Under the pieces are notes generated by a model that did no database searches, was not told the origin of the DNA, and worked only from the letters and a program-made list of their open reading frames with translations. 32,059 nucleotides of DNA from positions 1-32,059 of the forward strand of contig JAJYLV010000016.1 of the NCBI GenBank assembly GCA_021787445.1. Direction: 5' to 3'. Each line of letters begins with the position of its first letter. Position 1 is the first letter of the stretch. A program made the translations under genes and the position numbers. Shown here one piece after another: positions 4,930 to 17,818 of this stretch. Source of the stretch: Chloroflexota bacterium (lineage in GTDB: Bacteria; Chloroflexota; Limnocylindria; P2-11E).

Positions 4930-5433
4930 GTGCCCACCGTGAGACCGAGCGGCCCCGGCGCGGTCGACGTCGAGCTCGACGTCAACGGGATCCGGACCCC
5001 TCTCCACGTCGCGCCGCATACGACCCTCCTCGACGCGCTCCGCGAGGACGTCGGCCTTCTGGGTGCGAAGAAGGTCTGCGACGAGGGGACCTGCGGCGCG
5101 TGCACCCTCCTCGTCGACGGGCGGGCGGTCTACGCCTGCATGACGCTCGCGGTCGCGTGCGCCGGGAGATCGGTCGAGACGGTCGAGGGCCTCGCGCGCG
5201 ACGGCGAGCTCCATCCGGTGCAGGAGGCCTTCATCGCGCACGACGCTTTCCAGTGCGGCTTCTGCACCCCCGGGCAGATCATGTCGGTCGTCGCGCTGCT
5301 GCGCGCGACGCCCTCGCCGAGCGCCGACGAGGTCATGCGCGCCGTCTCCGGGAACCTCTGCCGCTGCGGCGCGTACCCGAACATCGTCGAGGCCGCGCTC
5401 GCCGCGGCCCGCAAGGGCAAGGAAAGACCATGA
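4930..5433 (+). CDS. Molybdenum hydroxylase cluster 1, 2Fe-2S subunit (CoxS/XdhC-terminal type)
   Basis: 167 residues from a GTG at 4930. It has both iron-sulfur sites of the family. The plant-ferredoxin-type site uses Cys50, Cys55, Cys58 and Cys70 (motif CDEGTCGAC). The second site, in the four-helix domain, uses Cys109, Cys112, Cys144 and Cys146 (CGFC and CRC). It relays electrons from the molybdopterin centre to the FAD subunit. No signal peptide is present, so this enzyme should be cytoplasmic, in contrast to cluster 2. An alternative in-frame GTG lies at 4939, but the -10 box placement favours 4930. The stop overlaps the start of the Mo subunit gene (ATGA). It is the first gene of a four-gene plus-strand operon. 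Confidence 0.93.
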   Translation: MPTVRPSGPGAVDVELDVNGIRTPLHVAPHTTLLDALREDVGLLGAKKVCDEGTCGACTLLVDGRAVYACMTLAVACAGRSVETVEGLARDGELHPVQEAFIAHDAFQCGFCTPGQIMSVVALLRATPSPSADEVMRAVSGNLCRCGAYPNIVEAALAAARKGKERP

Positions 5434-7790
5434 AGGGGGAGCGAGGATCGGGCTCCGCCGGTCCGAGCGACCCGCCGCGAAGCGAGGCCGCGGGCCGAGC
5501 CGACGGCGATCGAGCACGGGTCGTCCGTACCCGCAACGAGTTCGAGGGCGAGGTGATGGAGCAGCTCGCGCTCGTTCAGGGCGACGACGCCGAGGCGTGG
5601 GCGGCGGATGCGGTCCTCACGATCGTCGGGCGCCCGCAGCGTCGCGTCGAGGGCGCCGCGAAGGTCACCGGACGCGCCCGCTACACGCACGACATCCGGC
5701 TGCCCGGGACGCTCCACGCGCGCATCCTCCGCAGTCCACATCCGCGCGCGCGCGTCCGGCACGTCGACGCGAGCCGGGCCCTCGCCCTGGCGGGCGTCCG
5801 GGGCGTCCTCCATCGCTTCAACACGCCGAAGACGGCGTTCCGCGGCGAGGAGACGATCTTCCGCGAGGAGGTGCGCTTCGTCGGCGACGAGGTCGCCGCC
5901 GTGGCGGCCGACACCGAGGCGATCGCGGAGGCCGCGCTTTCGCTCATCGTCGTCGACTACGAGGTGCTCCCGCACGTCGTCGACCTCGAGGAGGCCATCG
6001 ACGCGGCATCGCCCCGCATCGACGAGAAGGGGAACGTCCTCGACGCGGACCGGTATGAGCGTGGCGACGTGCGGAAGGAGTTCGCCGCGGCGGACGTCGT
6101 CGTCGAGGGGACCTACCGCACCTCGACGCAGCTGCACAACTCGCTCGAGACGCACGGAGCGGTCGCCGTCTGGGACGGCGATCAGCTCACCGTGTACGAG
6201 TCGACGCAACACGTCTTCGGCGTGCGCGAAGGGCTGCGGAACGCCTTGCACCTTCCGCTGGCGAACATCCGCGTGCTCTGCGACCACATGGGCGGCGGCT
6301 TCGGCTCGAAGGGCGGTATCGGCAAGTACACGATCGTCGCCGCGCTCTTCGCGCGCGAGATCGGCGCTCCCGTCCGCTGTGTGCTCGACCGCCACGAGGA
6401 GAACGTCGCCGCCGGCAACCGCTCCGCGACGCTCCAGCGCGTGAGGGCCGCCGGGAAGGACGGGCGCATCACCGCGATCGCGCACGAGTCGTGGTCGAAC
6501 GTCGGTCAGGCGCGGTGGGTCGCCGATCCGACGGGCCCGACGAAGGGCCTCTACGACGTCCCGAACGTCCTCGCCCACGCGCACCGCGTCTTGACGAACA
6601 CCGGCTCGCTCGCGGCGTTCCGCGCGCCGGGGTACGTGGAGGGGACGTTCGCCCTCGAGTCGGCGATCGACGAGCTCGCCGACGGCATGGGCGTCGATCC
6701 CCTCGCGCTGAGGCGCCGCCACGCCGGATCCCAGGTCGACCCCGTCAGCAAGATGCGCTACTCGCTGAAGCGCCTCGTCGACTGCTACGACATCGGCGCG
6801 GAGGAGATCGGGTGGTCGCGCCGCGCGCGCGGCGGCCTACGCGGCTCGGCCCCGGGCCTGAGGCGAGGCCTCGGAATGGCCTCGCAGCTGTGGAGCGGGG
6901 GCGGGACGCCGCCGGCGTACGCGACGGTGCATCTCAACCCCGACGGCACCGCGGTGGTGCGGATCGGCACGCAAGACATCGGCACGGGCACACGCACCGT
7001 CATCGCGCAGGTGTGCGCCGAGGAGCTCGGTATCGACGTGCGTGGCGTGCGCGTCGAGATCGGCGACACCGACGCCCCGTACGCCCCCATCTCCGCCGGA
7101 TCGCTCACCGTCGCGTCGATCACGCCCGCCGTCCGCCTCGCCGCGAAGGACGCCCGCGAGCAGCTCCTCGACGTCGCGTCGGGCGTGCTAGAGGTCGGCC
7201 GCGCCGAGCTGCGCGTCGAGGGCGGCGCGGTCGTCAGCCGGGGCGCGCGCACGCCCATCGCGAAGGTCTTCGAGGACCTGGAGAACTACACCGTCATCGG
7301 CAAAGGCTCGCGGATGCCGAACCCCGACGACATCGTCCTCAAGACGTTCGGCGCGCACTTCGCCGAGGTCGAGGTCGATCCGGCGACGGGGATGGTCGTC
7401 GTCGAGCGGGTCGTCGCGGTGCACGACGTCGGGCGGATCGTGGATCCGCTCACCGCGCGCTCGCAGGTGGAGGGCGGGGTGATCCAGGCGCTGGGCTTCG
7501 CGCTCTCGGAAGAGCGCGTCGTCGACAAGCCGACCGGGCGGGTCCTCACGAGCGGCCTCGAGACGTACAAGGTCCCGACCGTGCGCGACGTCCCGCGGAT
7601 CGTCGTGCGCTTCGTCGACGTCCCCGATACCGTGGCGAACAACGTGGGCGCCAAGGGGCTGGGCGAGCCGCCCATCATCCCCGCGGCGGCCGCCGTCGCG
7701 AACGCCGTCGCGAACGGGCTCGGCGTGCGCATCCGGCACCTGCCCCTCACGCCGCGGCGGGTGCTCGACGCGCTGGCGGCGGCGTCGTGA
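5430..7790 (+). CDS. Molybdenum hydroxylase cluster 1, molybdopterin-binding catalytic subunit (xanthine dehydrogenase-like loop)
   Basis: 786 residues. The Mo-cofactor signatures are in order: GRPQRRVEGAAKVTG (67-81) opening the aldehyde oxidase/xanthine dehydrogenase a/b hammerhead domain, MGGGFGSK (287-294), the substrate-pocket arginine loop AAFRAPG (395-401), QDIGTGTRT near the middle of the second half, and GAKGLGE with the presumed catalytic Glu746. The loop resembles xanthine dehydrogenases and lacks the AYxCSFR of true carbon monoxide dehydrogenase, so this is not CoxL. The reaction is hydroxylation of a heterocycle or aldehyde; the substrate is unknown. The first roughly 60 residues are an unusual polar extension. 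An internal ATG at 5556 behind GAGG could be the true start, although the ATGA overlap with the 2Fe-2S gene favours 5430. Confidence 0.92.
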   Translation: MKGERGSGSAGPSDPPRSEAAGRADGDRARVVRTRNEFEGEVMEQLALVQGDDAEAWAADAVLTIVGRPQRRVEGAAKVTGRARYTHDIRLPGTLHARILRSPHPRARVRHVDASRALALAGVRGVLHRFNTPKTAFRGEETIFREEVRFVGDEVAAVAADTEAIAEAALSLIVVDYEVLPHVVDLEEAIDAASPRIDEKGNVLDADRYERGDVRKEFAAADVVVEGTYRTSTQLHNSLETHGAVAVWDGDQLTVYESTQHVFGVREGLRNALHLPLANIRVLCDHMGGGFGSKGGIGKYTIVAALFAREIGAPVRCVLDRHEENVAAGNRSATLQRVRAAGKDGRITAIAHESWSNVGQARWVADPTGPTKGLYDVPNVLAHAHRVLTNTGSLAAFRAPGYVEGTFALESAIDELADGMGVDPLALRRRHAGSQVDPVSKMRYSLKRLVDCYDIGAEEIGWSRRARGGLRGSAPGLRRGLGMASQLWSGGGTPPAYATVHLNPDGTAVVRIGTQDIGTGTRTVIAQVCAEELGIDVRGVRVEIGDTDAPYAPISAGSLTVASITPAVRLAAKDAREQLLDVASGVLEVGRAELRVEGGAVVSRGARTPIAKVFEDLENYTVIGKGSRMPNPDDIVLKTFGAHFAEVEVDPATGMVVVERVVAVHDVGRIVDPLTARSQVEGGVIQALGFALSEERVVDKPTGRVLTSGLETYKVPTVRDVPRIVVRFVDVPDTVANNVGAKGLGEPPIIPAAAAVANAVANGLGVRIRHLPLTPRRVLDALAAAS

Positions 7791-8764
7791 AGCCGTTCAC
7801 GTACGTCCGCGCGACCTCGGTCGCGGAGGCATCGCGCATGGTCGTCGCCGGATCCGCGCCGCTCGCCGGAGGCACGGACCTGCTCGGGCTCATGAAGGGC
7901 GGGATCGCGTCGCCGGCGCGGCTCGTCGACCTCGGCGGGATCGACGGACTGAACGGCTGGTCGCGCGAGCGCGGCGCCGGCCTGCGGATCGGCGCGCTCA
8001 CGCCGCTCGTCGACCTCGAGACGAGCGACCAGCTCGCGCGGCACCTCCCGATCGTGCGCGAGGCGCTCCGCGACACGGCGACGCTCCAGCTCCGGAACGC
8101 CGGCACGGTCGGAGGGAACCTGCTGCAGCGCAACCGCTGCTGGTACTTCCGCGACGCGGCGATCCAGTGCTGGCTGAAGGGCGGAACGCAGTGCTTCGCC
8201 AAGGAGGGCGAGAACGAGCACCACGCGATCATCGGCACCGCGCGCGGCTGCAACCGCGTCGCGCCCTCGGACCTCGCGCCCGCGCTCATCGCGCACGATG
8301 CGCGCGTGACGCTCACGAGCACGCGCGGGACGCGCTCCGTTCTCCTCGCCGACCTCTTCACCGACCCCGCGCTGCACAGCCGCGAGGAGCACACGCTCCG
8401 TCGCGGCGAGATCCTCACCGAGGTGCAGGTCCCCGAGTCCGGTCTCCAGCGCCGAGGTACCTACCTCAAGGCCATGGAGCGCAAGACGTGGAGCTTCGCG
8501 CTCGTCTCCGTCGCGGTCGCGGCGCGCATCCGCGGCGGCAAGCTCCGCGACCCGCGCATCGTGCTCGGCGGTGTCGCGCCGGTGCCCTGGCGCGTCGAGG
8601 CCGCGGAGGCCGAGATCGACGGCCACCCGTTCAGCGACGACCTCGCCCGGCGCGCCGCGGACCTCCTCCTCGCCGACGCGGCGCCTCTGGCGAAGAACGG
8701 GTACAAGGTGCCGCTCGCGAAGGAGCTCGTCCGCCGGGCCCTCGCCCGCATCGCCGCGGCGTGA
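7787..8764 (+). CDS. Molybdenum hydroxylase cluster 1, FAD-binding subunit with four-cysteine insert
   Basis: 325 residues from a GTG overlapping the Mo subunit stop (GTGA). FAD-binding blocks of the CO-dehydrogenase flavoprotein family are visible: LAGGTDLLGLMK (26-37) and RNAGTVGGNLLQ (103-114). Directly after the second block comes an insert with RCWYFRD and cysteines 118, 128, 136 and 155. In E. coli PaoB and in 4-hydroxybenzoyl-CoA reductase, inserts at this place bind a 4Fe-4S cluster, so an extra cluster is expected here (inference by analogy). The subunit passes electrons to the final acceptor through FAD. The stop overlaps the GTG of the nucleotidyltransferase gene. Confidence 0.9.
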   Translation: MKPFTYVRATSVAEASRMVVAGSAPLAGGTDLLGLMKGGIASPARLVDLGGIDGLNGWSRERGAGLRIGALTPLVDLETSDQLARHLPIVREALRDTATLQLRNAGTVGGNLLQRNRCWYFRDAAIQCWLKGGTQCFAKEGENEHHAIIGTARGCNRVAPSDLAPALIAHDARVTLTSTRGTRSVLLADLFTDPALHSREEHTLRRGEILTEVQVPESGLQRRGTYLKAMERKTWSFALVSVAVAARIRGGKLRDPRIVLGGVAPVPWRVEAAEAEIDGHPFSDDLARRAADLLLADAAPLAKNGYKVPLAKELVRRALARIAAA

Positions 8765-9354
8765 GCCGCGTCGCGGCCATCATCCTCGCGGCCGGGACGT
8801 CGAGCCGGTTCGGTGGGGAGAAGCTCCTCGCGCCGCTGGACGGCCGGCCGATCCTGCAGCACGTGCTGGACGCGGCGAACGCCTCGACGCTCGACGAGAT
8901 CGTCGTCGTCGTCGGCCATTCCGCGCCGAGGGTCCTCGCCGGCGTTCGGCTCGGCCGCGCGCGTGCCGTCGCGAACCCCGAGTTCGCGCGCGGGCAGTCG
9001 ACCTCGCTCCGCGCCGGTCTCGCCGCCGTCGCGGACGCGGATGCCGCCGTCGTCCTCCTGGGCGACCAGCCGCGCATCCGTGCCGCGCTTCTCGAGGCGC
9101 TCGTCGCCCGTCAGCGGGCCACCGGAGCGGCGGCCGTCGTCTCGTCGTGGCACGGACGCCGCTCGCCCCCGGCGCTCCTCGGCCGCGCGCTGTGGCCGCA
9201 CCTCGCGACGGTCACCGGCGACGTCGGCGCGCGCGAGCTGCTCGCCGGGCGCGACGACGTCGCCGTCGTCGAGGTCACCGCGGCGCTCGGCAGCCTCGAG
9301 GACGTGGACAGCAGCGACGACATCGCGCGGCTGAAGGGTGCGGGTCCTCTCTAG
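8761..9354 (+). CDS. MobA-like/MocA-type NTP transferase, molybdenum cofactor maturation (YgfJ family)
   Basis: 197 residues from a GTG overlapping the FAD subunit stop (GTGA). The N-terminal nucleotide-binding signature LAAGTSSRFGGEK is typical of MobA-like nucleotidyltransferases, and LLGDQPRI around residues 99-106 supplies the metal-binding aspartate. MocA enzymes convert molybdopterin cofactor to the cytosine dinucleotide form used by xanthine-oxidase-family hydroxylases. YgfJ homologues of unknown specificity accompany selenium-dependent hydroxylases. Its place as the last gene of cluster 1 supports a role in cofactor supply for that enzyme. The stop TAG (9352-9354) overlaps the stop of the convergent cytochrome b gene in a shared CTAG. 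Confidence 0.88.
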   Translation: MSRVAAIILAAGTSSRFGGEKLLAPLDGRPILQHVLDAANASTLDEIVVVVGHSAPRVLAGVRLGRARAVANPEFARGQSTSLRAGLAAVADADAAVVLLGDQPRIRAALLEALVARQRATGAAAVVSSWHGRRSPPALLGRALWPHLATVTGDVGARELLAGRDDVAVVEVTAALGSLEDVDSSDDIARLKGAGPL

Positions 9355-10343
9355 TCGCCTCCCGCCGTGCCGTGCGCCGGGACCTCTCGTCCGGGGACGA
9401 CGACCTCGCGCTGGCCCAGCTCGTCGGCCCAGGCGGGGAACTCCTCGTGGACGGTGTCCAGGCGCATGCGCCCGGTGACCATCGAGCGGATGCCGGGCCA
9501 GTTGCGCGGCACGAGGAAGATCGCCGCGAGGTGCAGCCCGACGACGATGAGCGTCAGCCACACCGAGACGTCGTGCAGCCACGTCGACCACCTGAGCACG
9601 TCGAGGGGCACGGCGAAGAAGTAGTGGGCGGCCTTGACCAGGCCGGTGGCGACGACGATGACCGACAGGATCGCGAGGGGCGTGAAGGAGAGGACCTTCT
9701 CGACCGAGAGGAACTTGCCCTCGCGCGTGGCGGGGCGGATGCCGACGGCCGCGAGGGCGTCCTGCAGCCAGACCATGCGCAGGCGCAGCCCGAGGACCCC
9801 CGGCTGGCCGTAGGTGCCGAGGTACCCGAAGAGGCGCGCGATCGCGGGGCCGACGTCGCCCCAGCGCGGGAAGAGCGCGTCCTGCCCGCGAACGCGGCTG
9901 TACAGCACGAAGGCCCCGCCGGCGAGGACGATGAGGCCCGCGCCGACGAAGTGGACGACGTAGAGGGTCGGACGGCCATCGACCGTGGTGTCGAGGCCGA
10001 AGAGGCGCAGCAGCCACGCGCCGGTGATGAAGGCGAGGACGAAGCCGAGGGCGACGGCCCAGTGGACCAGGCGCTCGCCCCAGGCGTAGCGGATGACGTC
10101 GCCGTCGGTGACGCGGTCGCGCCCGCGGCGCACCACCGCGGCGAGGACGAGCCCGAGGACGACGCCGACCGCGGTCGCGAGGATGAGGAGGCGCGAGCCG
10201 TCGACGACGATGGGCAGGAGCGAGCGGTCGGTCTGCCAGGTGACCGTGGGCATCCCGAGCGCGAAGAGCCACACGGCGCCGCCGATGGCCAGGAGGAGCA
10301 GCACGATGTCGCTCGCGATGGGGAACGCTTTCGTCTTCTTCAC
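9351..10343 (-). CDS. Membrane cytochrome b subunit, formate dehydrogenase/Ni-hydrogenase type
   Basis: 330 residues from a GTG that overlaps the ferredoxin stop (GTGA). Six membrane helices are visible: roughly 10-30, 51-71, 92-112, 127-148, 218-240 and 257-278. Histidines inside or next to helices (94 in ERLVHW, 131 in VVHF, 240, 257 and 271 in GLHLAAIF) are candidates for two heme b groups, as in FdnI/HyaC-type cytochromes. The two N-terminal helices are additional to the usual four-helix core. It should accept electrons from the exported ferredoxin and reduce quinone. It is the last gene of the cluster 2 operon, next to a molybdenum hydroxylase rather than a formate dehydrogenase, and that is its most unusual aspect. 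Confidence 0.85.
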   Translation of the reverse strand: MKKTKAFPIASDIVLLLLAIGGAVWLFALGMPTVTWQTDRSLLPIVVDGSRLLILATAVGVVLGLVLAAVVRRGRDRVTDGDVIRYAWGERLVHWAVALGFVLAFITGAWLLRLFGLDTTVDGRPTLYVVHFVGAGLIVLAGGAFVLYSRVRGQDALFPRWGDVGPAIARLFGYLGTYGQPGVLGLRLRMVWLQDALAAVGIRPATREGKFLSVEKVLSFTPLAILSVIVVATGLVKAAHYFFAVPLDVLRWSTWLHDVSVWLTLIVVGLHLAAIFLVPRNWPGIRSMVTGRMRLDTVHEEFPAWADELGQREVVVPGREVPAHGTAGGD

Positions 10344-11074
10344 ACCAGCTTCTCCCACTGCTCTTGCGTGCTGGGCTTGAGATCGAGCGCGAGGTGGTCG
10401 CTCTTGATGTACCCGGCGCGGATGGCGACGTTGACGGGGCAGCGCTCGACGCAGATGGGCCCCCCCGTGCGGCCGATGCACAGGTCGCACTTGACGTACG
10501 CATTGGTCGCCGGGTCGCGCACGACGCGCTTGCTGTCGATGGGTAGCGACGTCCGTGCGAGGGTGCCCTTCCACTCGACGGGGCAGTCGACCTCGCACTT
10601 GCCGCAGTCGATGCACTCGCCCTCGCTGATGTAGCGGTCGCCGGTGGCGGGGTCGATGCGGAGCGCGTCGGTCGGACAGTTGGGGACGCAGTACGGCGTC
10701 GGGCACTGCCGGCACGTCGAGGGCGAGAAACCCGAGCGCGCGGGGACGTAGCTCGCGAGCTGTGTCTGCAGCTTCACGTCGCTCGTCGCGAGGATGCGGA
10801 TGCGCGGGACCGCCGAGCGCCCGACGGAGGCGTGCCAGGTCGAGCAGTTCACCTCGCAGGCGAGGCACCCGACGCACAGGGTCGGGTCGGTGACGACGAC
10901 CTTGTCCGAGAGCGGCCGCTGCGCCGCAACGGCGGTCGCGGCGCGTCCGAAAGCCCCCGCGCTCGCGGCGACGACGCCGACGGCCGCGAGCCCGCCGAGG
11001 ACGAGGCGGCGGCGGGAGAGCGCCTCCTCGGAGGTCGCCTCGCCGGAGGTGTCGCGCGTGTCCTGATCGCTCAT
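10340..11074 (-). CDS. Tat-exported ferredoxin with four 4Fe-4S clusters (DmsB/FdhB type)
   Basis: 244 residues. The start chosen is the ATG at 11074, directly behind GGGAGGGAG; a GTG five codons earlier is less well placed. Residues 20-45 form a twin-arginine signal (SRRRLVLGG, then a hydrophobic stretch), so the protein is probably exported folded. Sixteen cysteines make four 4Fe-4S motifs: 67/70/73/77, 121/124/129/133, 154/157/160/164 and 196/199/208/212. This is the electron-transfer subunit architecture of DMSO reductase, polysulfide reductase and formate dehydrogenase complexes. Between a molybdenum hydroxylase and a cytochrome b it would form the wire from enzyme to membrane (inference). 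The gene starts about 11 bases past the FAD subunit stop. Confidence 0.9.
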   Translation of the reverse strand: MSDQDTRDTSGEATSEEALSRRRLVLGGLAAVGVVAASAGAFGRAATAVAAQRPLSDKVVVTDPTLCVGCLACEVNCSTWHASVGRSAVPRIRILATSDVKLQTQLASYVPARSGFSPSTCRQCPTPYCVPNCPTDALRIDPATGDRYISEGECIDCGKCEVDCPVEWKGTLARTSLPIDSKRVVRDPATNAYVKCDLCIGRTGGPICVERCPVNVAIRAGYIKSDHLALDLKPSTQEQWEKLV

Positions 11075-11085
11075 CTCTCCCTCCC

Positions 11086-12060
11086 TCACCGGGCCGCCAG
11101 CGCCGTCAGGGCCTGGCGCACCAGCCCCTTGATCAGCGGGACCTTGTACGCGTTGGAGGCCAGTGGCTTGGCGCCGTCGGCCGCGAGCTCGGCGGCCTGG
11201 GCGATCGTGTCCGCAGCGAGGCTCTTGCCCTCGAGGAAGGCCTCGGCCTTCGTCGCGCGGTGCGGCGTCGGCGCGACCGCGCCGAGGGCGATGCGCGCGG
11301 TCTGGATGACGTTCGTGCCGACGACCTGCGCGCCGACCGAGGTCCGCGCGAAGTCGATCGAGCGCCGGGGGGCGGCCTTGAGGAAGACGCTCGGCGCGCC
11401 GAGCGCGCCCGGCGGGACGCGCACCTCGGTGATGATCTCGTCGGGCGCGAGGACCGTCTCGCGCAGGTAGTCGGTGTCGGGGCCGACGAAGAACGAGGCG
11501 ATGGGTACCGTGCGCTGGCCCTTCGGTCCCGCCACGACGACGCTCGCGTCGAGCGCGCTGAGCGCGGTCGCGGTGTCGGATGGGTGGACGGCGAAACAGG
11601 CCGCCCCGCCGAAGACGGCGTGGAGGTCGCTCGCCCCCAGGACCGCATAGCAGTAGCTGCCGTTGCGCTTGTAGCAGTCGGTGCGGTCGGCGTCGCGGAA
11701 GTACCAGCAGCGCACCTTCTGCGCGAGGTTGCCGCCGAGCGTGCCCATGTTGCGGATCTGCGGAGAGGCCACCAGACCCGCGGCCTGCGCGAGCGCCGGA
11801 GCCTTCTGGCTGACGAGGCTCGAGCTCGCGATGTCGCCGAGACGCGCGAGCGCGCCGATGGCGAGCGTCCCGGCGTCGTCCTTGATGTGGTCGAGGCCCT
11901 GGATGCCCTTGAGGTCGACGACACGGTCGGTCGGGAGCAGCGCATCCTTCATGATCCCGAGGAGGTCGGTGCCGCCGCCGAGCGCGCGCGCGTTCTGGGC
12001 CGAGAGGAGCTGCACCGCTTCTTGGACCGAGGTCGGTCGCGTGTATTCGAAGCTCTTCAT
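11086..12060 (-). CDS. Molybdenum hydroxylase cluster 2, FAD-binding subunit with four-cysteine insert
   Basis: 324 residues; the ATG at 12060 follows GAGGAGG located at the end of the Mo subunit gene. FAD-binding blocks are LGGGTDLLGIMK (27-38) and RNMGTLGGNLAQ (103-114). A cysteine-rich insert follows, with RCWYFRD and cysteines 118, 129, 137 and 155, nearly superimposable on the cluster 1 subunit and expected to hold a 4Fe-4S cluster as in PaoB. It has no signal peptide of its own. If the enzyme is exported it must travel in a folded complex with the Tat-tagged 2Fe-2S subunit, as reported for E. coli PaoABC. The subunit would hand electrons to the operon's ferredoxin instead of a soluble acceptor (inference). 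Confidence 0.9.
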   Translation of the reverse strand: MKSFEYTRPTSVQEAVQLLSAQNARALGGGTDLLGIMKDALLPTDRVVDLKGIQGLDHIKDDAGTLAIGALARLGDIASSSLVSQKAPALAQAAGLVASPQIRNMGTLGGNLAQKVRCWYFRDADRTDCYKRNGSYCYAVLGASDLHAVFGGAACFAVHPSDTATALSALDASVVVAGPKGQRTVPIASFFVGPDTDYLRETVLAPDEIITEVRVPPGALGAPSVFLKAAPRRSIDFARTSVGAQVVGTNVIQTARIALGAVAPTPHRATKAEAFLEGKSLAADTIAQAAELAADGAKPLASNAYKVPLIKGLVRQALTALAAR

Positions 12061-12073
12061 CGTCAGCCTCCTC

Positions 12074-14560
12074 TCACTTCTTCATCTGCGCGATCGCCGC
12101 GAGCACCTTGTCGCGTGTGATCGGGAGATCGCGGATGCGGACCCCGATCGCGTTGTAGACGGCGTTCGCGATGGCGGGCGCCGGGGGTGAGGTCGGCGGC
12201 TCGCCGACGCCCTTCGCGCCGTACGGCCCGACGGCGTCGCCCGGCTCGACGATGATCGTCCGGAAGTCGGCGATCTTCGGGTGGTCGAGCGTCGTCGGCA
12301 TCGCGTAGTTCTCCCAGTTCCACATCACCGGGAACTTCTGCTGCGGGTCGAACTTCATCTCTTCGCCCAGCGCCATCCCGAAGCTCATCGAGATCGCGCC
12401 GTCCATCTGCTGCTCGACGCCGAGGGGATTGACCGCCTTCCCGACGTCGTTCGCGCCGACGTAGCTCAGGAGCGTCACCTCTCCGGTGTCGAGGTCCACC
12501 TCGACCTCGGCGAAGCCGGCGGCGAAGGTCGACATCCCGTAGTTGCGCGGAATGGTGTGCGCGCCGCGGCCCATCATCGGGCCGCCCGTGCTGGCGACGA
12601 CATCGGCGATCCGCACCTTCTTGGACGGGTCGGCCTTTACGAAGACGAAGCCGCCCCCGGTATCGAGGTCCTCGGGCTTCCCGGGGAGCATCGGCGCGTT
12701 CTTCGGAGGGAGCGGCCTCGCCGCCTGCTGGAGGATCTGCCACTTGAGGTCGAGGCCGGCCTCGAGCACCGCGCTCCCAGCGGAGATCGTCTGGCGGCTG
12801 CCGTTCGTCCCCGAGGAGTCCGGCGTGAAGGCGGAGTCACCCCACGAGGGATGCGCCTCCTCGAGATCCACCCCGACCGTCTCGGCGCCGATCATCATCA
12901 TCGTCGTCGACTGGCCGCCGCCGATGTCCGTCGTCGGCTGGATGACGTCGAGGCTGCCGTCCTGGTCGATCTTCATCATCGCCGTCATCGGCATCGTCAT
13001 GGAGCCGTGCGCGCACGCGTGTGCCGATAGGCCGATGCCGTGAGCCTTGTTGCCCTTGATCGCGGCCGCGGGCTTGTGCCACTTCTGCGTCCAGCCGATC
13101 GACTGGGCGCCCTTCTGCAGGCACTCGACGATCCCGCAGCTCGCCCACGGCAGCTTGCGCTGGACCGCGCCGCCGGCTTCACCCGCGCCGCCGAAGGCGT
13201 TCTCGAGGTCCGCCGGCATGGCGGCGTCCTGGTTGACCTTCGTCTCGACGTTCATGAGGCGGAACGCGAGCGGATCGACGCCCGCCTTCTCGGCGAGCTC
13301 GTCCATGAAGACCTCCTGGGCGAAGGTCCCCTGGGGGTTGCCGACGCAGCGCTGGAAGCCGCTCGGTCCGCGGTTCGTGAGCGTGCCCAGCTGCTGGAAG
13401 TACGCGTTGTCGACGTGGTACAGGCGCGCGATCGACACCATGACGTCCGTGAGGGAGAAGGCGCTGTACGCGCCCGAGTCGCTGATCGCCTCCGCTCGGT
13501 AGGCGGAGATCTTGCCGCTGCGGTCCGCCCCCGCCTTGAAGTCGACGACGGTCGCATAGCGGTGCGTGGCCGCCTTGAAGTTGGCGGGTCGCGTGTACTC
13601 GACCTTCACCGGCCGCTGGGTCATCTGCGCGAGGACCGCCGCGAAGCGTCCGTGGCGGGCACTGCTCGACTTGTCGCCGAATCCGCCTCCGACGTGCGGC
13701 GCGATCACCCGAACGTGGCTGCGCGGCAGCTTGAAGGTCGTGGCGAGCTCGGCGCGGACGCCCATGATGTATTGGGTCCCGGCGTAGACGGTGAGCTGGT
13801 CCGGTCCCTCCCAGTGGGCGACGGCATTGCGCGGCTCTAGCGTCGCGTGCTGCAACGTCTGCGTCGTGTAGCGTCCCTCGACGGTGACCGGCGCGGCGGC
13901 GTATGCGGAGTCGTAGCTGCCGCGCTTGGTGAGCGGATACGACGCGGCCAGCTTGTTGCCCTTGCCACCGCCTTGGAGGTCCGGCGCGCCGGACGCGAGC
14001 GCGGCCTCGGGGTCGGTGACGGACGGAAGGACCTTGTACTGCACCGTGATGAGGGCGATGGCGTCGCGCGCGGTGTGGATGTCGTCCGCCGCGACGACGG
14101 CGACCTCCTCGCCGGCGAAATGCACCTCTTGGCCGAGGATGTACTGGGGGGGCGGGCCGCCGAGCGACACCTTGGGCACGTTCTTGTACGTGATCACGGC
14201 CCGCACGCCGGGCAGCGCCTCCGCCGCCGACGTGTCGATCGACTCGATCGTCGCGTGCGCGTGCGGGGACCCCAGGACCGCGGCGTACAGCATTCCCGGG
14301 AGCTGGACGTCCGAGGAGAAGATGGCCTGGCCCGTCAGGCGCGCGGGGTCGCCGAGGCGGGGCACGCTGCGACCGACGATGCTCGTCGGCTTCGCCGCCG
14401 CGCGAAGATGAGCGGGGGTCTTCGGCGTGATCGCGATGAGGTACGCGTTGACCGCGTCGAGCTCGTCCTGGAACGCCCAGGGGCTCTCCGACGCGATGAG
14501 CTGGAACTCGGGATCGGCCAGCAGCTCGAGGACGCGCTTGGTCGAGATCTTCTTCGGCAT
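12074..14560 (-). CDS. Molybdenum hydroxylase cluster 2, molybdopterin-binding catalytic subunit with divergent active-site loop
   Basis: 828 residues; ATG at 14560 behind AGGAG. It has a roughly 55-residue N-terminal extension before the hammerhead domain (SIVGRSVPRLGDPARLTG, 60-77). Then come HVGGGFGDK (289-297), the substrate loop GFQRCVGNPQ (401-410), the segment TTDIGGGQSTTMMM, and GAKGVGE with presumed catalytic Glu787. The loop keeps the family arginine but has neither FRAPG, RGHG nor AYxCSFR, so the substrate is not predictable. A methionine-rich stretch (SMTMPMTAMM) precedes the GGGQ block. It carries no signal peptide and should be exported together with the Tat-tagged 2Fe-2S partner. 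Gene order here is 2Fe-2S, Mo, FAD, which differs from PaoABC. Confidence 0.92.
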   Translation of the reverse strand: MPKKISTKRVLELLADPEFQLIASESPWAFQDELDAVNAYLIAITPKTPAHLRAAAKPTSIVGRSVPRLGDPARLTGQAIFSSDVQLPGMLYAAVLGSPHAHATIESIDTSAAEALPGVRAVITYKNVPKVSLGGPPPQYILGQEVHFAGEEVAVVAADDIHTARDAIALITVQYKVLPSVTDPEAALASGAPDLQGGGKGNKLAASYPLTKRGSYDSAYAAAPVTVEGRYTTQTLQHATLEPRNAVAHWEGPDQLTVYAGTQYIMGVRAELATTFKLPRSHVRVIAPHVGGGFGDKSSSARHGRFAAVLAQMTQRPVKVEYTRPANFKAATHRYATVVDFKAGADRSGKISAYRAEAISDSGAYSAFSLTDVMVSIARLYHVDNAYFQQLGTLTNRGPSGFQRCVGNPQGTFAQEVFMDELAEKAGVDPLAFRLMNVETKVNQDAAMPADLENAFGGAGEAGGAVQRKLPWASCGIVECLQKGAQSIGWTQKWHKPAAAIKGNKAHGIGLSAHACAHGSMTMPMTAMMKIDQDGSLDVIQPTTDIGGGQSTTMMMIGAETVGVDLEEAHPSWGDSAFTPDSSGTNGSRQTISAGSAVLEAGLDLKWQILQQAARPLPPKNAPMLPGKPEDLDTGGGFVFVKADPSKKVRIADVVASTGGPMMGRGAHTIPRNYGMSTFAAGFAEVEVDLDTGEVTLLSYVGANDVGKAVNPLGVEQQMDGAISMSFGMALGEEMKFDPQQKFPVMWNWENYAMPTTLDHPKIADFRTIIVEPGDAVGPYGAKGVGEPPTSPPAPAIANAVYNAIGVRIRDLPITRDKVLAAIAQMKK

Positions 14561-14569
14561 CTCAGTCTC

Positions 14570-15214
14570 CTACGCGGCGGGCGTCTGGCCCGACGCCACG
14601 AGCACCGCTTCGACGATCTTCTTGTAGCCGGTGCACCGGCAGAGGTTCCCGGAGAGCGCGTGGCGAACGTCGTCCTCGGTGGGCTTCGCGTTCGCGGTGA
14701 GGAGCGCCGTCGCGCTCATGAGCATCCCGGACGTGCAGAACCCGCACTGCGCCGCACCGCGGTCCCAGAACGCCTGCTGGAGGTCGTTCAGCCGCCCGTG
14801 TGTGGCCAGGCCCTCGACCGTCGCGATCTTCCGGCCCGCCATCTCCTGCGCGAGCGTCATGCACGAGAGCGTCGGCTTGCCGTCGACGAGGACGGTGCAG
14901 GAGCCGCACTCCCCCCTGTCGCATCCGACCTTGGTCCCCGTCAGCCGGAGCTGGTCGCGCAGCATCTCCGCGAGCGTCCAGCGCGTGTCCACGGCCGCCT
15001 CGAACAGCGTGCCGTTGACCGTGAGCTGCATGAGGACCGTCTTCCCGGCCCCCGCCGGAGGGCCGACGCGGACGGCTTTGGGCGTTGCCGGCGGCGGCGT
15101 AGGGCCGACCGCGGTCGTGCAGCTCACGGCGGCGGCGGTGCCGGCCGAGGTGACGCCCGCGACCTTCAAGAATGCGCGGCGTGAGAAGCGCTTCGTGGAC
15201 TGAGGGTCCGACAC
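14570..15214 (-). CDS. Molybdenum hydroxylase cluster 2, Tat-exported 2Fe-2S subunit
   Basis: 214 residues from a GTG at 15214 behind GGGAGGG. The N-terminus is a textbook twin-arginine signal, FSRRAFLKVAG (10-20), followed by a hydrophobic stretch and AVSC with Cys32, which may also be a lipidation site. A Pro-rich linker leads to the 2Fe-2S domains: Cys98, 103, 106 and 118 (CDRGECGSC), then Cys157, 160, 192 and 194. E. coli PaoA, the small subunit of a periplasmic aldehyde oxidoreductase, has the same arrangement. The whole enzyme is therefore expected outside the cytoplasmic membrane. It is the first gene of the operon that continues through the Mo subunit, FAD subunit, ferredoxin and cytochrome b. 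Confidence 0.92.
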   Translation of the reverse strand: MSDPQSTKRFSRRAFLKVAGVTSAGTAAAVSCTTAVGPTPPPATPKAVRVGPPAGAGKTVLMQLTVNGTLFEAAVDTRWTLAEMLRDQLRLTGTKVGCDRGECGSCTVLVDGKPTLSCMTLAQEMAGRKIATVEGLATHGRLNDLQQAFWDRGAAQCGFCTSGMLMSATALLTANAKPTEDDVRHALSGNLCRCTGYKKIVEAVLVASGQTPAA

Positions 15215-15400: not shown

Positions 15401-16087
15401 CTACGCGAGGTGGTGCTCGAACGCGTACGCGACGGCTCCGGCGCGGCTGTGGACACCGAGCTTGTTCAGGATCACCGCGATGTGGTTATGGACGGTGTGG
15501 GTGCTGACGCCCAGGCGGTCGGCGATCACCTGCGTACCCGCGCCGTGCGCGAGCAGGCCGAGCACTTCGGCCTCACGGAGCGTGAGGCGCGCCGGGGCCC
15601 GCTCCGTCACGCCATTCGTCGCGCGCGCCGCGAGCACGTCCTCCGCATCGGTCGCGAGCTCCTGCAGGAACCTCTCGAGGCGCTTGGCCCTGTTGACGTT
15701 GCGCAGGAGGTGCGCGAGCGCGAGCGGACGCCCCCCGGCGTCGCAGATCGGCAGGATGGAGACGTTCGCCCAGACGCCGTGGTCGCCGAGCGCCTGAATG
15801 TCGAAGTTGTGGATCGGCGCTCCCCGCCGAGCGAGAGCCCATTTCTCGCAGTGGAGGCGGCAGACCTGCCGGCCGGAATCGTCCGCACCGGCGATCACCT
15901 CGTAGCACGGGTGCCCCTGGACATCGTCGGCGCGCCGATGAAAGGCGCTCTCGGCGGCCTTGTTCCACGACACGATGGACCAGTGGTCGTCGACGACGAA
16001 AACGGGGTCGCCACACGCCTCGAGCGTGCGAAGGATGCCGTCGGCGACCGCGCTCGGCTCTTCGATGAACTCCCCCTTGGCGTCCAC
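15401..16087 (-). CDS. PAS-domain LuxR-family transcriptional regulator with three-cysteine motif
   Basis: 228 residues from a GTG at 16087. Residues about 18-130 form a PAS sensor domain (DPVFVVDDHWSIVSWNKAAE), with cysteines 61, 76 and 80 in the pattern CYEVI...C...C; these could bind a metal or respond to redox. Residues about 166-226 form a LuxR/NarL-type helix-turn-helix (LTLREAEVLGLLA, then IADRLGVSTHTVHNHI). There is no receiver domain, so it is a one-component sensor rather than a response regulator. It sits directly upstream of the cluster 2 operon and divergent from yqeC, which suggests that it controls one or both (inference). An inverted repeat lies between it and cluster 2. Confidence 0.88.
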   Translation of the reverse strand: MDAKGEFIEEPSAVADGILRTLEACGDPVFVVDDHWSIVSWNKAAESAFHRRADDVQGHPCYEVIAGADDSGRQVCRLHCEKWALARRGAPIHNFDIQALGDHGVWANVSILPICDAGGRPLALAHLLRNVNRAKRLERFLQELATDAEDVLAARATNGVTERAPARLTLREAEVLGLLAHGAGTQVIADRLGVSTHTVHNHIAVILNKLGVHSRAGAVAYAFEHHLA

Positions 16088-16106: not shown

Positions 16107-16152
16107 ACGGTCGACCGTCGAAAGGCCTGACTGCGAGACCATCCGTCGGATG
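16107..16152. promoter_or_regulatory. Divergent intergenic region with two perfect palindromes (regulator/yqeC)
   Basis: The short region between the LuxR-type regulator (start 16087, minus) and yqeC (start near 16165, plus) holds ACGGTCGACCGT at 16107-16118 and CATCCGTCGGATG at 16140-16152, both perfect dyads. A -10-like TACGGT (16106-16111) overlaps the first. In such GC-rich DNA one palindrome could be chance; two in a regulator's divergent promoter are worth noting as possible operators. Confidence 0.3.
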
Positions 16153-16164
16153 AGGCAGGGGCGA

Positions 16165-17019
16165 ATGGCGCGCGCCGGCGTTGAGACCTGGTGGCATCGT
16201 CGCACCGTGGTCCGCGGCCTGTCCCAGCGTGGGAACGCGCTGGCGGACGCCCTCGCGCTTCGCGAGCACGACGTCGTCGCGTTCGTCGGCGCGGGCGGAA
16301 AGACGACGGCCATGCTGCGTCTCGCGCGGGAGCTTCGCGCCCGCGGCAAGGCGGTCGCCGTCACCACGACGACGCGCATCTTCGCCCCGGAGGAGCGCGG
16401 TGCCTTGCTGGACGTGGTCGGTCGCACGACGCGCGAGCTGCGGCGCGGCGTCCTCTCCGCGCTCGCGCGCGGGGATGTTCCGGTCGTCGGACGCGCGCTC
16501 GACCCGGATGGAAAGCTCATCGGCGTCGTGCCCGCCAGCGTCGCGTGGCTGGCGAAGCTGCCCGCGATCGACCACGTCCTGGTGGAGGCGGACGGCGCCC
16601 GCGGGAAGCCCTTCAAGGCGCCGCGCCGGGGAGAGCCCGTCATCCCGGCGGTGGCGACCCTCGTCGTCATCGTCGTCGGGATCGACGCCGTCGGCCGTCG
16701 CCTGCGCGCGGCGGCCCATCACGCCGCGCCGGTACGGAGGATCGTCGACGTCGGAGAGGACGATCACCTCGTCGCGAGCACGATCGCGCGCGTCCTCCTG
16801 CATCCGTCCGGAGGGGCCAGGGGCGTTCCGCGCGGCGCGCGCGTCGTGTACCTGATCAACAAGGCCGATACCGCGCTGCGCATCGCGCGCGCGCGAGCGC
16901 TGTCGCGGGAGCTGCGCCTCGGAGGCGCCCGCCATGTCGTGACCGTGGCGCTGCGCCGGCGCGACGCCGTCGTCCGCGTCGATCGGGAACGCCGCGTCAG
17001 GCGATCGCGATCGGAGTGA
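16165..17019 (+). CDS. yqeC: YqeC-family accessory protein of selenium-dependent molybdenum hydroxylases
   Basis: 284 residues from the ATG at 16165. The P-loop-like FVGAGGKTTAMLRLA (40-54) is followed by VTTTTRIFAP and later DHVLVEADGARGKPFKAP, the hallmark blocks of the YqeC family. The family is known from comparative genomics to accompany labile-selenium molybdenum hydroxylases along with YqeB; its biochemical role is not established. Starts at 16150 and at the GTG 16207 are also possible; 16165 has AGGCAGGGG just upstream. The last 23 bases overlap the end of the convergent yqeB gene. The C-terminal region is Arg-rich and less conserved. Confidence 0.85.
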   Translation: MARAGVETWWHRRTVVRGLSQRGNALADALALREHDVVAFVGAGGKTTAMLRLARELRARGKAVAVTTTTRIFAPEERGALLDVVGRTTRELRRGVLSALARGDVPVVGRALDPDGKLIGVVPASVAWLAKLPAIDHVLVEADGARGKPFKAPRRGEPVIPAVATLVVIVVGIDAVGRRLRAAAHHAAPVRRIVDVGEDDHLVASTIARVLLHPSGGARGVPRGARVVYLINKADTALRIARARALSRELRLGGARHVVTVALRRRDAVVRVDRERRVRRSRSE

Positions 17020-17818
17020 CGGGCGCGCGGTCGAGGAGGTAGAGCGCGGCCTCGAGGACGCCCCCGCCGATCGCCAGTGCCTTGTCGGAGATGGTGAAGC
17101 AGTGTTCCCTCGCCGCCCGCGGGTCGACGTCGCCGACCTTCATTCCCGCGCGGACGACGATGCCGTCGTGGACGAGTCCGCGCAGACGGCCGTCGAAGGG
17201 GCATCGCAGCGCGACGCCCTCGACGTCGCCGAGCGTCTCGCCGGCGCGCACCGCGTCGCCGATGTCGCGCGCCGCGCGGAACACGCCATCCGCCGGAGCG
17301 CGCAGGACGCGGTCGGCGCCGTGCCCGTCCACGACGCCGGGTACTCCGGTATCGGGTTCGGCCTCACCCGACAGGATCACGCGGCCGAGGCGATGGCCGC
17401 GGTTGGTCTCGATGACGGCGTGCGCGTCGATCGGCGCGCGGAACCCCGGGCCGATGGCGATGACCACGGGCGCGTCGTCGAGCCTCGTTCCCGTGTTGCG
17501 CTTCGCCATGATCGCGTCGACGACGACCGGCGGATGGAGCTCGCCGATCGTTCGAGCCTGCGGGTCGATCACGACCGCGACGCCGCCGGAGCGCGCCGTC
17601 GCCGCCGCCTTGGCCGGCGAGCACACGCGACGGCCGACGATGCCCTCGATGCTGACGGCTCCGTCGAAGATCGCCTCAGCGAACGAGACCGTCCGTCGCA
17701 CGACGAGCGGCTGCGCCAGCTCGGTCATCACCACGGGCCAACCCGAGCGCACGAGCCGATAGGCGATGCCGCTCGCGAGGTCGCCCGCGCCCTTGACGAC
17801 GACGAGGTCATCGCGCAC
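16997..17818 (-). CDS. yqeB: YqeB/EF2563-family accessory protein of selenium-dependent molybdenum hydroxylases
   Basis: 273 residues from a GTG at 17818. The N-terminal VVVKGAGDLASGIAYRL is a Rossmann-like block typical of this family, and MAKRNTGTRLDDAPVVIAIGPGF and ETNRGHRLGRVI-type segments follow. The C-terminal half contains a lipoyl/biotinyl-like region (VRAPADGVFRAARDIGDAVRAGETLG pattern), also seen in the family. YqeB and YqeC mark the selenium-dependent molybdenum hydroxylase system and are thought to help in cofactor maturation. The gene overlaps the 3' end of yqeC tail to tail, so the pair is physically linked although convergent. No selD, selA or selB is present in the window. 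Confidence 0.87.
   Translation of the reverse strand: MRDDLVVVKGAGDLASGIAYRLVRSGWPVVMTELAQPLVVRRTVSFAEAIFDGAVSIEGIVGRRVCSPAKAAATARSGGVAVVIDPQARTIGELHPPVVVDAIMAKRNTGTRLDDAPVVIAIGPGFRAPIDAHAVIETNRGHRLGRVILSGEAEPDTGVPGVVDGHGADRVLRAPADGVFRAARDIGDAVRAGETLGDVEGVALRCPFDGRLRGLVHDGIVVRAGMKVGDVDPRAAREHCFTISDKALAIGGGVLEAALYLLDRAPVTPIAIA

Follow-up and report, generated by a model that had tools for sequence, protein, structure and literature searches.

Five adjacent genes in an uncultured Chloroflexota bacterium raise the question of where a molybdenum hydroxylase working outside the cytoplasmic membrane would deliver its electrons. The stretch of DNA analyzed here (the window; 32,059 nucleotides, contig JAJYLV010000016.1 of assembly GCA_021787445.1, contig C62 in our numbering) comes from a 2.51-Mb, 95%-complete genome of ∼72% GC content. 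On its minus strand, from 15214 to 9351, it carries the genes for a three-subunit enzyme of the xanthine oxidase family followed by those for a ferredoxin and a membrane cytochrome b. A sequence-only reading of the window had described five co-oriented, closely packed genes and proposed that the hydroxylase is joined to a module of the formate dehydrogenase (FDH) type. We find it probable that these genes specify a molybdenum hydroxylase, extracytoplasmic and attached to the membrane, that acts as a substrate:quinone oxidoreductase; as envelope type varies within Chloroflexota, “extracytoplasmic” is preferred to “periplasmic.” The genes are, in operon order:

14570..15214, minus strand: small (2Fe-2S) subunit, with a twin-arginine translocation (Tat) signal (KRFSRRAFLKVAG) and two [2Fe-2S] domains; Pfam Fer2/Fer2_2
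12074..14560, minus strand: molybdenum (Mo) subunit carrying the Mo cofactor (Moco), 828 residues; Pfam Ald_Xan_dh_C, MoCoBD_1 and MoCoBD_2
11086..12060, minus strand: flavin adenine dinucleotide (FAD) subunit with a four-Cys [4Fe-4S] insertion; Pfam FAD_binding_5 and CO_deh_flav_C
10340..11074, minus strand: polyferredoxin of the FdhB/NrfC/HycB kind, with a Tat signal and 16 Cys for four [4Fe-4S] clusters; Pfam Fer4 family
9351..10343, minus strand: membrane cytochrome b, six helices, with His94, His131, His257 and His271; Pfam Ni_hydr_CYTB

This layout agrees with the sequence-only reading in coordinates. Successive genes are separated by 9, 13, and 11 bp, and the ferredoxin and cytochrome b genes overlap by 4 bp; the small-subunit gene has a GTG start, with GGGAGG ahead of the start codon. 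All Pfam domains expected for the five proteins lie above the gathering score, and none of the five reaches an NCBIfam equivalog cut-off. The nearest named relatives of the cluster are metagenome-assembled genomes of Chloroflexota. Compared with the nearest of these (L012), the five proteins are 85 to 95% identical, and their ratios of nonsynonymous to synonymous substitution (dN/dS) of 0.10 to 0.20 (small subunit, 0.10) denote purifying selection in all five, which argues for five maintained genes. A scan for promoters and terminators found none and is uninformative at ∼72% GC.

Co-occurrence of the Modules

We searched 400 Chloroflexota genomes with profiles of the FAD subunit, the ferredoxin, and the cytochrome b (cut-offs of ≥450 bits, E ≤ 1e-30, and >300 bits, respectively). 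The FAD subunit scores 460 to 596 bits in 10 of the 400 genomes and ≤364 bits in the other 390. The ferredoxin is found in exactly these 10 genomes, as is the cytochrome b, which scores 333 to 443 bits there and ≤105 bits elsewhere. The exact chance of such a 10-genome match is 4e-20 if genomes are independent; they are related, and the figure is a rough guide only. Within genera g2, g3, and g106, some members have all three modules and others have none of them, a pattern that points to the modules having been gained or lost as a unit.

When the whole collection was scanned with an alignment of three ferredoxin sequences, 22 loci scored strongly, every one labeled Chloroflexi/Chloroflexota, Anaerolineales, or Dehalococcoidia; of 25 weak loci, none (0/25) has such a label. 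The cytochrome b gene lies just downstream of the ferredoxin gene in 20 of the 22 strong loci (in L014 one PD40 gene intervenes); the exceptions are L031, which ends at the ferredoxin, and L016, where tblastn found no cytochrome b. The Mo/FAD/2Fe-2S trio, whole or in part, is present within ∼9 kb of the ferredoxin in the strong loci that hold enough sequence; in L022, L023, L026, L031, and L032, no trio was seen or the sequence on the side in question is short. Directly after the cytochrome b gene, L015, L019, and L021 encode MocA and XdhC, maturation factors of the xanthine oxidase family. No cytochrome b or trio gene was found in any of the 25 weak loci. Because the scan hung on two short peptide patterns, members in other phyla may be missed; in the Acidobacteriota, the phylum of L046, the ferredoxin was found in 0 of 149 genomes, a weak negative for want of a positive control.

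Co-occurrence in the 400 genomes and the 22 loci rules out a chance adjacency of the trio and the ferredoxin-cytochrome pair. The sequence-only reading had named beforehand what would speak against it, namely partners absent beside most orthologues or accompanying another oxidoreductase; the identical set of 10 genomes and the 22 loci show neither. Distant cytochrome b relatives (77 to 105 bits) in genomes G066 and G376 were rejected as members, as their neighbors are multihaem c proteins and a CcmF-like protein instead of Mo hydroxylases. Two more in G352 were rejected with none of the cluster's other genes nearby.

An FDH-Type Ferredoxin and Cytochrome b

Four motifs account for all 16 Cys of the ferredoxin; each Cys is kept in every complete orthologue, and the Tat motif of the protein (SRRRLV) is kept in orthologues with a readable N terminus. 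Its nearest solved chains include HycB3, NrfC-type chains, and FdnH. The AlphaFold model of the cytochrome b has six helices with a mean predicted local distance difference test (pLDDT) score of 81, and His94, His131, His257, and His271 are invariant in 18 sequences; these four would be the ligands of two haems b. Searched against 350,542 PDB chains, the model has a sole significant match, 1kqf_C, the FDH-N γ subunit (prob 1.00; template modeling score 0.74 on target). A sequence profile of the cytochrome b also matches 1kqf_C (E = 4.5e-10), with three of the His falling on FdnI His18, His155, and His169 and the fourth matched by position only. The FDH γ equivalog model TIGR01583 was missed (39.4 bits against a cut-off of 115.85 bits). 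The union of hydroxylase and FDH-type module put forward from the sequence is upheld by this structural match; motifs, conservation, and the model likewise bear out its two Tat signals, 16 ferredoxin Cys, and six cytochrome helices.

As in the β and γ subunits of Escherichia coli FDH-N (FdnH/FdnI), a four-[4Fe-4S] ferredoxin is combined with a four-His, di-haem cytochrome b suited to transfer from the outside to quinone. FDH β/γ modules serve enzymes of the dimethyl sulfoxide (DMSO) reductase family. The catalytic subunit of FDH-N belongs to that family, whereas that of the cluster belongs to the xanthine oxidase family; no DMSO-reductase-family catalytic subunit was found in the cluster or among the recurrent neighbors of its relatives. 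The ferredoxin also differs from FDH-N β in having its own Tat signal, and the cytochrome b from FDH-N γ in two extra N-terminal helices. A related polyferredoxin is present in the aldehyde oxidoreductase (AOR) of PDB entry 8c0z, which has an FdhB-like subunit. We take its catalytic subunit to belong to the tungsten AOR superfamily, not to that of xanthine oxidase, and know of no membrane cytochrome for this enzyme.

The Catalytic Trio and Its Relatives

The nearest solved structures to the Mo subunit are PaoC of E. coli PaoABC (5g5h), the best structural relative, and the α subunit of Thauera 4-hydroxybenzoyl-CoA reductase (4-HBCR; 1rm6). The large subunit of 8gy3, named “aldehyde dehydrogenase,” is also among the structural matches. 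Catalytic Glu787 aligns with PaoC Glu692, and the Glu is kept in 14/14 Mo subunits linked to the ferredoxin-cytochrome pair. Moco domains, a subunit with two [2Fe-2S] clusters, a FAD subunit, and the catalytic Glu near the Mo site place the trio in the xanthine oxidase family, and hydroxylation at the Mo site is assumed from this membership. Scores fall below the NCBIfam equivalog cut-offs for xanthine dehydrogenase XdhABC (455/780, 174/310, and 181/217 bits) and for 4-HBCR (α, 450/995; β, 178/405; γ, 194/258 bits).

The FAD subunit carries an insertion with four Cys (C118, C129, C137, and C155; RCWYFR..C..C..C) that aligns with PaoB and 5y6q_B and is kept in 18/18 orthologues; the sequence-only reading had not mentioned it. 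The [4Fe-4S] insertion is likely the docking point of the ferredoxin, and it would supply the contact missing between the trio and the ferredoxin. 4-HBCR is a cytoplasmic enzyme, with no partner cytochrome known to us, that shares the Mo/FAD/2Fe-2S architecture and has an extra [4Fe-4S]. This additional cluster and an inverted electron flow are named in the title of Unciuleac 2004, as cited in PMC3958847, and PMC12771579 has 4-HBCR accepting electrons from reduced ferredoxin; together they offer a precedent for contact between a ferredoxin and such a cluster.

With PaoABC the trio shares a small-subunit Tat signal (here SRRAFLK, kept in orthologues with a readable N terminus), a heterotrimeric makeup, the Cys insertion of the FAD subunit, and the catalytic Glu. 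PaoABC differs in gene order (2Fe-2S, FAD, Mo), and paoABCD neither contains nor adjoins a gene for a ferredoxin or a cytochrome b. It also differs at the N terminus of the Mo subunit, which is extended by ∼58 residues in the window and by 50 to 97 residues in linked Mo subunits, as compared with 14 in PaoC; a Tat-exported trio in genome G376 that has neither ferredoxin nor cytochrome b as partner is without the extension. A correlation between extension and ferredoxin/cytochrome partners is suggestive only, because the neighboring enzyme x1 has 41 residues at this position. PaoABC prefers aromatic aldehydes and does not use NAD+, and its terminal electron acceptor has not been identified (PMC3958847). 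We considered whether the cluster might be a plain aldehyde detoxification enzyme of this type, with a soluble or diffuse acceptor and the adjacent pair as a neutral neighbor. PaoABC is indeed the nearest solved enzyme, but the Mo subunit reaches only 400.4 of the 1180 bits required by the NCBIfam PaoC equivalog model and has an N-terminal extension not found in PaoC, and the co-inheritance with the pair is exclusive across several Chloroflexota families; we give this explanation hardly any credence.

The membrane aldehyde dehydrogenase (mALDH, MCD type) of acetic acid bacteria resembles the proposed system: it is a molybdoprotein bound to the membrane, has [2Fe-2S], and reduces ubiquinone (PMC9171043). 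Its electrons reach ubiquinone through a three-haem-c subunit (PMC9171043), whereas the cluster has a FAD subunit, a [4Fe-4S] ferredoxin, and a cytochrome b, and no haem-c subunit is encoded among its five genes.

Two Subtypes of the Cluster

In a tree of Mo subunits, the linked sequences cluster together with one change (support, 82/93), although the program leaves the fork open. Subtype A comprises the window, L012, and L013 and is flanked by a LuxR/PAS regulator, yqeC, and yqeB. Subtype B includes most other loci; its clusters also contain genes for a PD40 propeller and an Inositol_P-family protein and, in some cases, for MocA/XdhC. L014 stands separate. A diverged subtype B copy, likewise beyond what the sequence-only reading contained, is present in the genome of the window itself (L071, on contig C16); another ferredoxin gene lies on contig C180, which is short.

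The further conserved genes of subtype B (PD40 with an invariant CTFxCH, Inositol_P-like), and the existence of Tat-exported trios without the pair (PaoABC, G376), would fit a view in which hydroxylase and pair have separate functions and are merely co-inherited, the pair serving a different exported partner, such as the PD40 propeller, or another oxidoreductase. This is very unlikely in our judgment: co-occurrence is exact across the 400 genomes, no further catalytic subunit turns up repeatedly in the intervening DNA, and subtype A, that of the window, consists of nothing but the five genes, a regulator, and maturation genes. Another catalytic oxidoreductase was sought between the FAD and ferredoxin genes of the longer clusters and rejected; the recurrent genes there are the PD40 propeller, the Inositol_P-family gene, and small proteins.

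Several features of the two subtypes and of G376 were observed alongside. The PD40/TolB-like propeller gene of contig C16 (L071:7941-9068, minus strand) has relatives in 15 loci (e.g., L015:8491-9630 and L018:11843-13036). Its product has hydrophobic segments at both termini and a CTF[AG]CH motif, a CX3CH, invariant in 15/15 sequences, which could bind a c-type haem or form a redox disulfide; the propeller might be an additional partner in subtype B, for electron transfer or for anchoring. In subtype B Mo subunits such as L011:3421-5985, another sequence (LGMSFGS in L011) takes the place of the GGGFG loop that subtype A, PaoC, and the paralogues have at the Mo site, and the AKG motif before the catalytic Glu becomes AHG. 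These changes hint that the substrate or the surroundings of the Mo differ. The small-subunit signals of subtype A end in lipobox-like motifs (VAAC in L013, 5835-6575; AVSC in the window, 15214-14570), so this subunit could be a lipoprotein exported by Tat. G376, a small Chloroflexota genome (1.4 Mb), has five related FAD subunits; the trio examined there (L077:3757-8600, on G376:C7) is Tat-exported and has the Cys insertion and YqeB, without ferredoxin or cytochrome b.

A Proposed Path from the Mo Site to Quinone

In the model we propose, the Mo, FAD, and 2Fe-2S subunits would fold and be loaded with cofactors in the cytoplasm and be exported jointly through the small-subunit Tat signal, while the ferredoxin would be exported by its own. 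The substrate, probably an aldehyde or N-heterocycle, would be hydroxylated with water at the Mo site outside the membrane. In enzymes of the xanthine oxidase family, electrons run from Mo through two [2Fe-2S] clusters to FAD. Here they would continue to the [4Fe-4S] cluster of the FAD subunit, the four [4Fe-4S] clusters of the ferredoxin, the two haems b, and quinone. This model is the simplest in view of three features: the trio has the [4Fe-4S] site, Tat signals are present on trio and polyferredoxin alike, and the polyferredoxin gene is accompanied by one for a di-haem cytochrome b of the FDH type. We infer a single physical complex, with quinone as acceptor; the direction toward quinone is favored by the low potentials generally associated with aldehyde and heterocycle hydroxylation and by the respiratory chain of the genome, which includes NuoH and two haem-copper oxidases. 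TatC is encoded as well.

Some observations weigh against this model. The structure prediction for the ferredoxin was discarded at a pLDDT of 37, and the protein has no counterpart of the membrane helix at the C terminus of FDH-N β. The ferredoxin and cytochrome b genes of subtype B often lie 2 to 8 kb from the Mo operon and in convergent orientation to it, so co-transcription is not universal. The futalosine-pathway family PF02621 has no match in the genome, where the classical menaquinone route was not searched.

The same complex could also work in reverse as a terminal reductase, with electrons passing from quinol through cytochrome b, ferredoxin, and the [4Fe-4S] cluster of the FAD subunit to Mo, where an external acceptor would be reduced or dehydroxylated. 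4-HBCR, one of the two closest solved relatives, is a reductase running in this direction from ferredoxin, and the family member Ucdh is a dehydroxylase (PMC12771579); the [4Fe-4S] insertion itself is a known 4-HBCR feature by the title of Unciuleac 2004 (via PMC3958847). Quinol, however, is by textbook knowledge too weak a donor for 4-HBCR-like chemistry, and the two haem-copper oxidases mean that an oxidizing chain exists. Moreover PaoABC, in which PaoB has the same Cys insertion, is an aldehyde oxidase (PMC3958847). We regard the reverse direction as unlikely and favor oxidation of the substrate with transfer to quinone.

Flanking Genes and the Selenium Question

Beside the cluster, and beyond what the sequence-only reading contained, lie three further genes, the last two of uncertain membership in the system:

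15401..16087, minus strand: LuxR-type regulator with a PAS domain (GerE and PAS_4), upstream of and co-oriented with the cluster
16150..17019, plus strand: YqeC, marker of selenium-dependent molybdenum hydroxylases; above the TIGR03172 cut-off
16997..17818, minus strand: YqeB, selenium-dependent Moco maturation; TIGR03309, 347.7 against 220 bits

The LuxR/PAS gene also adjoins the cluster in L012 and L013/L078, and its product is the probable regulator of the cluster. Two operons of the xanthine oxidase family, neither with evident Tat signals, flank the region and were likewise additional to that reading. The first (4930-9354, plus strand) encodes 2Fe-2S, Mo, and FAD subunits and MocA and is convergent with the cytochrome b gene, their stop codons overlapping. 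The second (28573-22871, minus strand) encodes 2Fe-2S, Mo, and FAD subunits, MocA, XdhC, and an IclR regulator.

Subtype A was found in three species, and yqeB and yqeC adjoin the cluster in each of them; the genome has the markers of a selenium-dependent hydroxylase: YqeB, YqeC, and SelD. The SelD gene carries an in-frame TGA, so the genome probably uses selenocysteine too and this marker is not decisive; YqeB and YqeC could also serve a different Mo hydroxylase encoded in this genome. We entertain, tentatively and with more doubt than confidence, that subtype A is an exported, respiratory-chain-coupled, selenium-dependent molybdenum hydroxylase. If true, it would be a selenium-molybdenum enzyme acting outside the membrane and feeding quinone.

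Implications

Each part of the system is already known: exported xanthine-oxidase-family enzymes (PaoABC), the quinone-linked mALDH, and FDH β/γ modules. The sequence-only reading knew of no characterized precedent for the partner set, and in open-licence PubMed Central text we found no description of a flavin-[4Fe-4S] molybdenum hydroxylase that is exported and has a polyferredoxin and cytochrome b of its own. To the question of which acceptor exported enzymes of the flavin/[4Fe-4S] molybdenum hydroxylase type use, the cluster offers a genetically encoded, testable answer. It would make the FDH β/γ module combinable with a xanthine-oxidase-family catalyst, widening the modular picture of molybdoenzyme respiration, and it suggests that uncultured Chloroflexota may take respiratory electrons from extracellular aldehydes or heterocycles.

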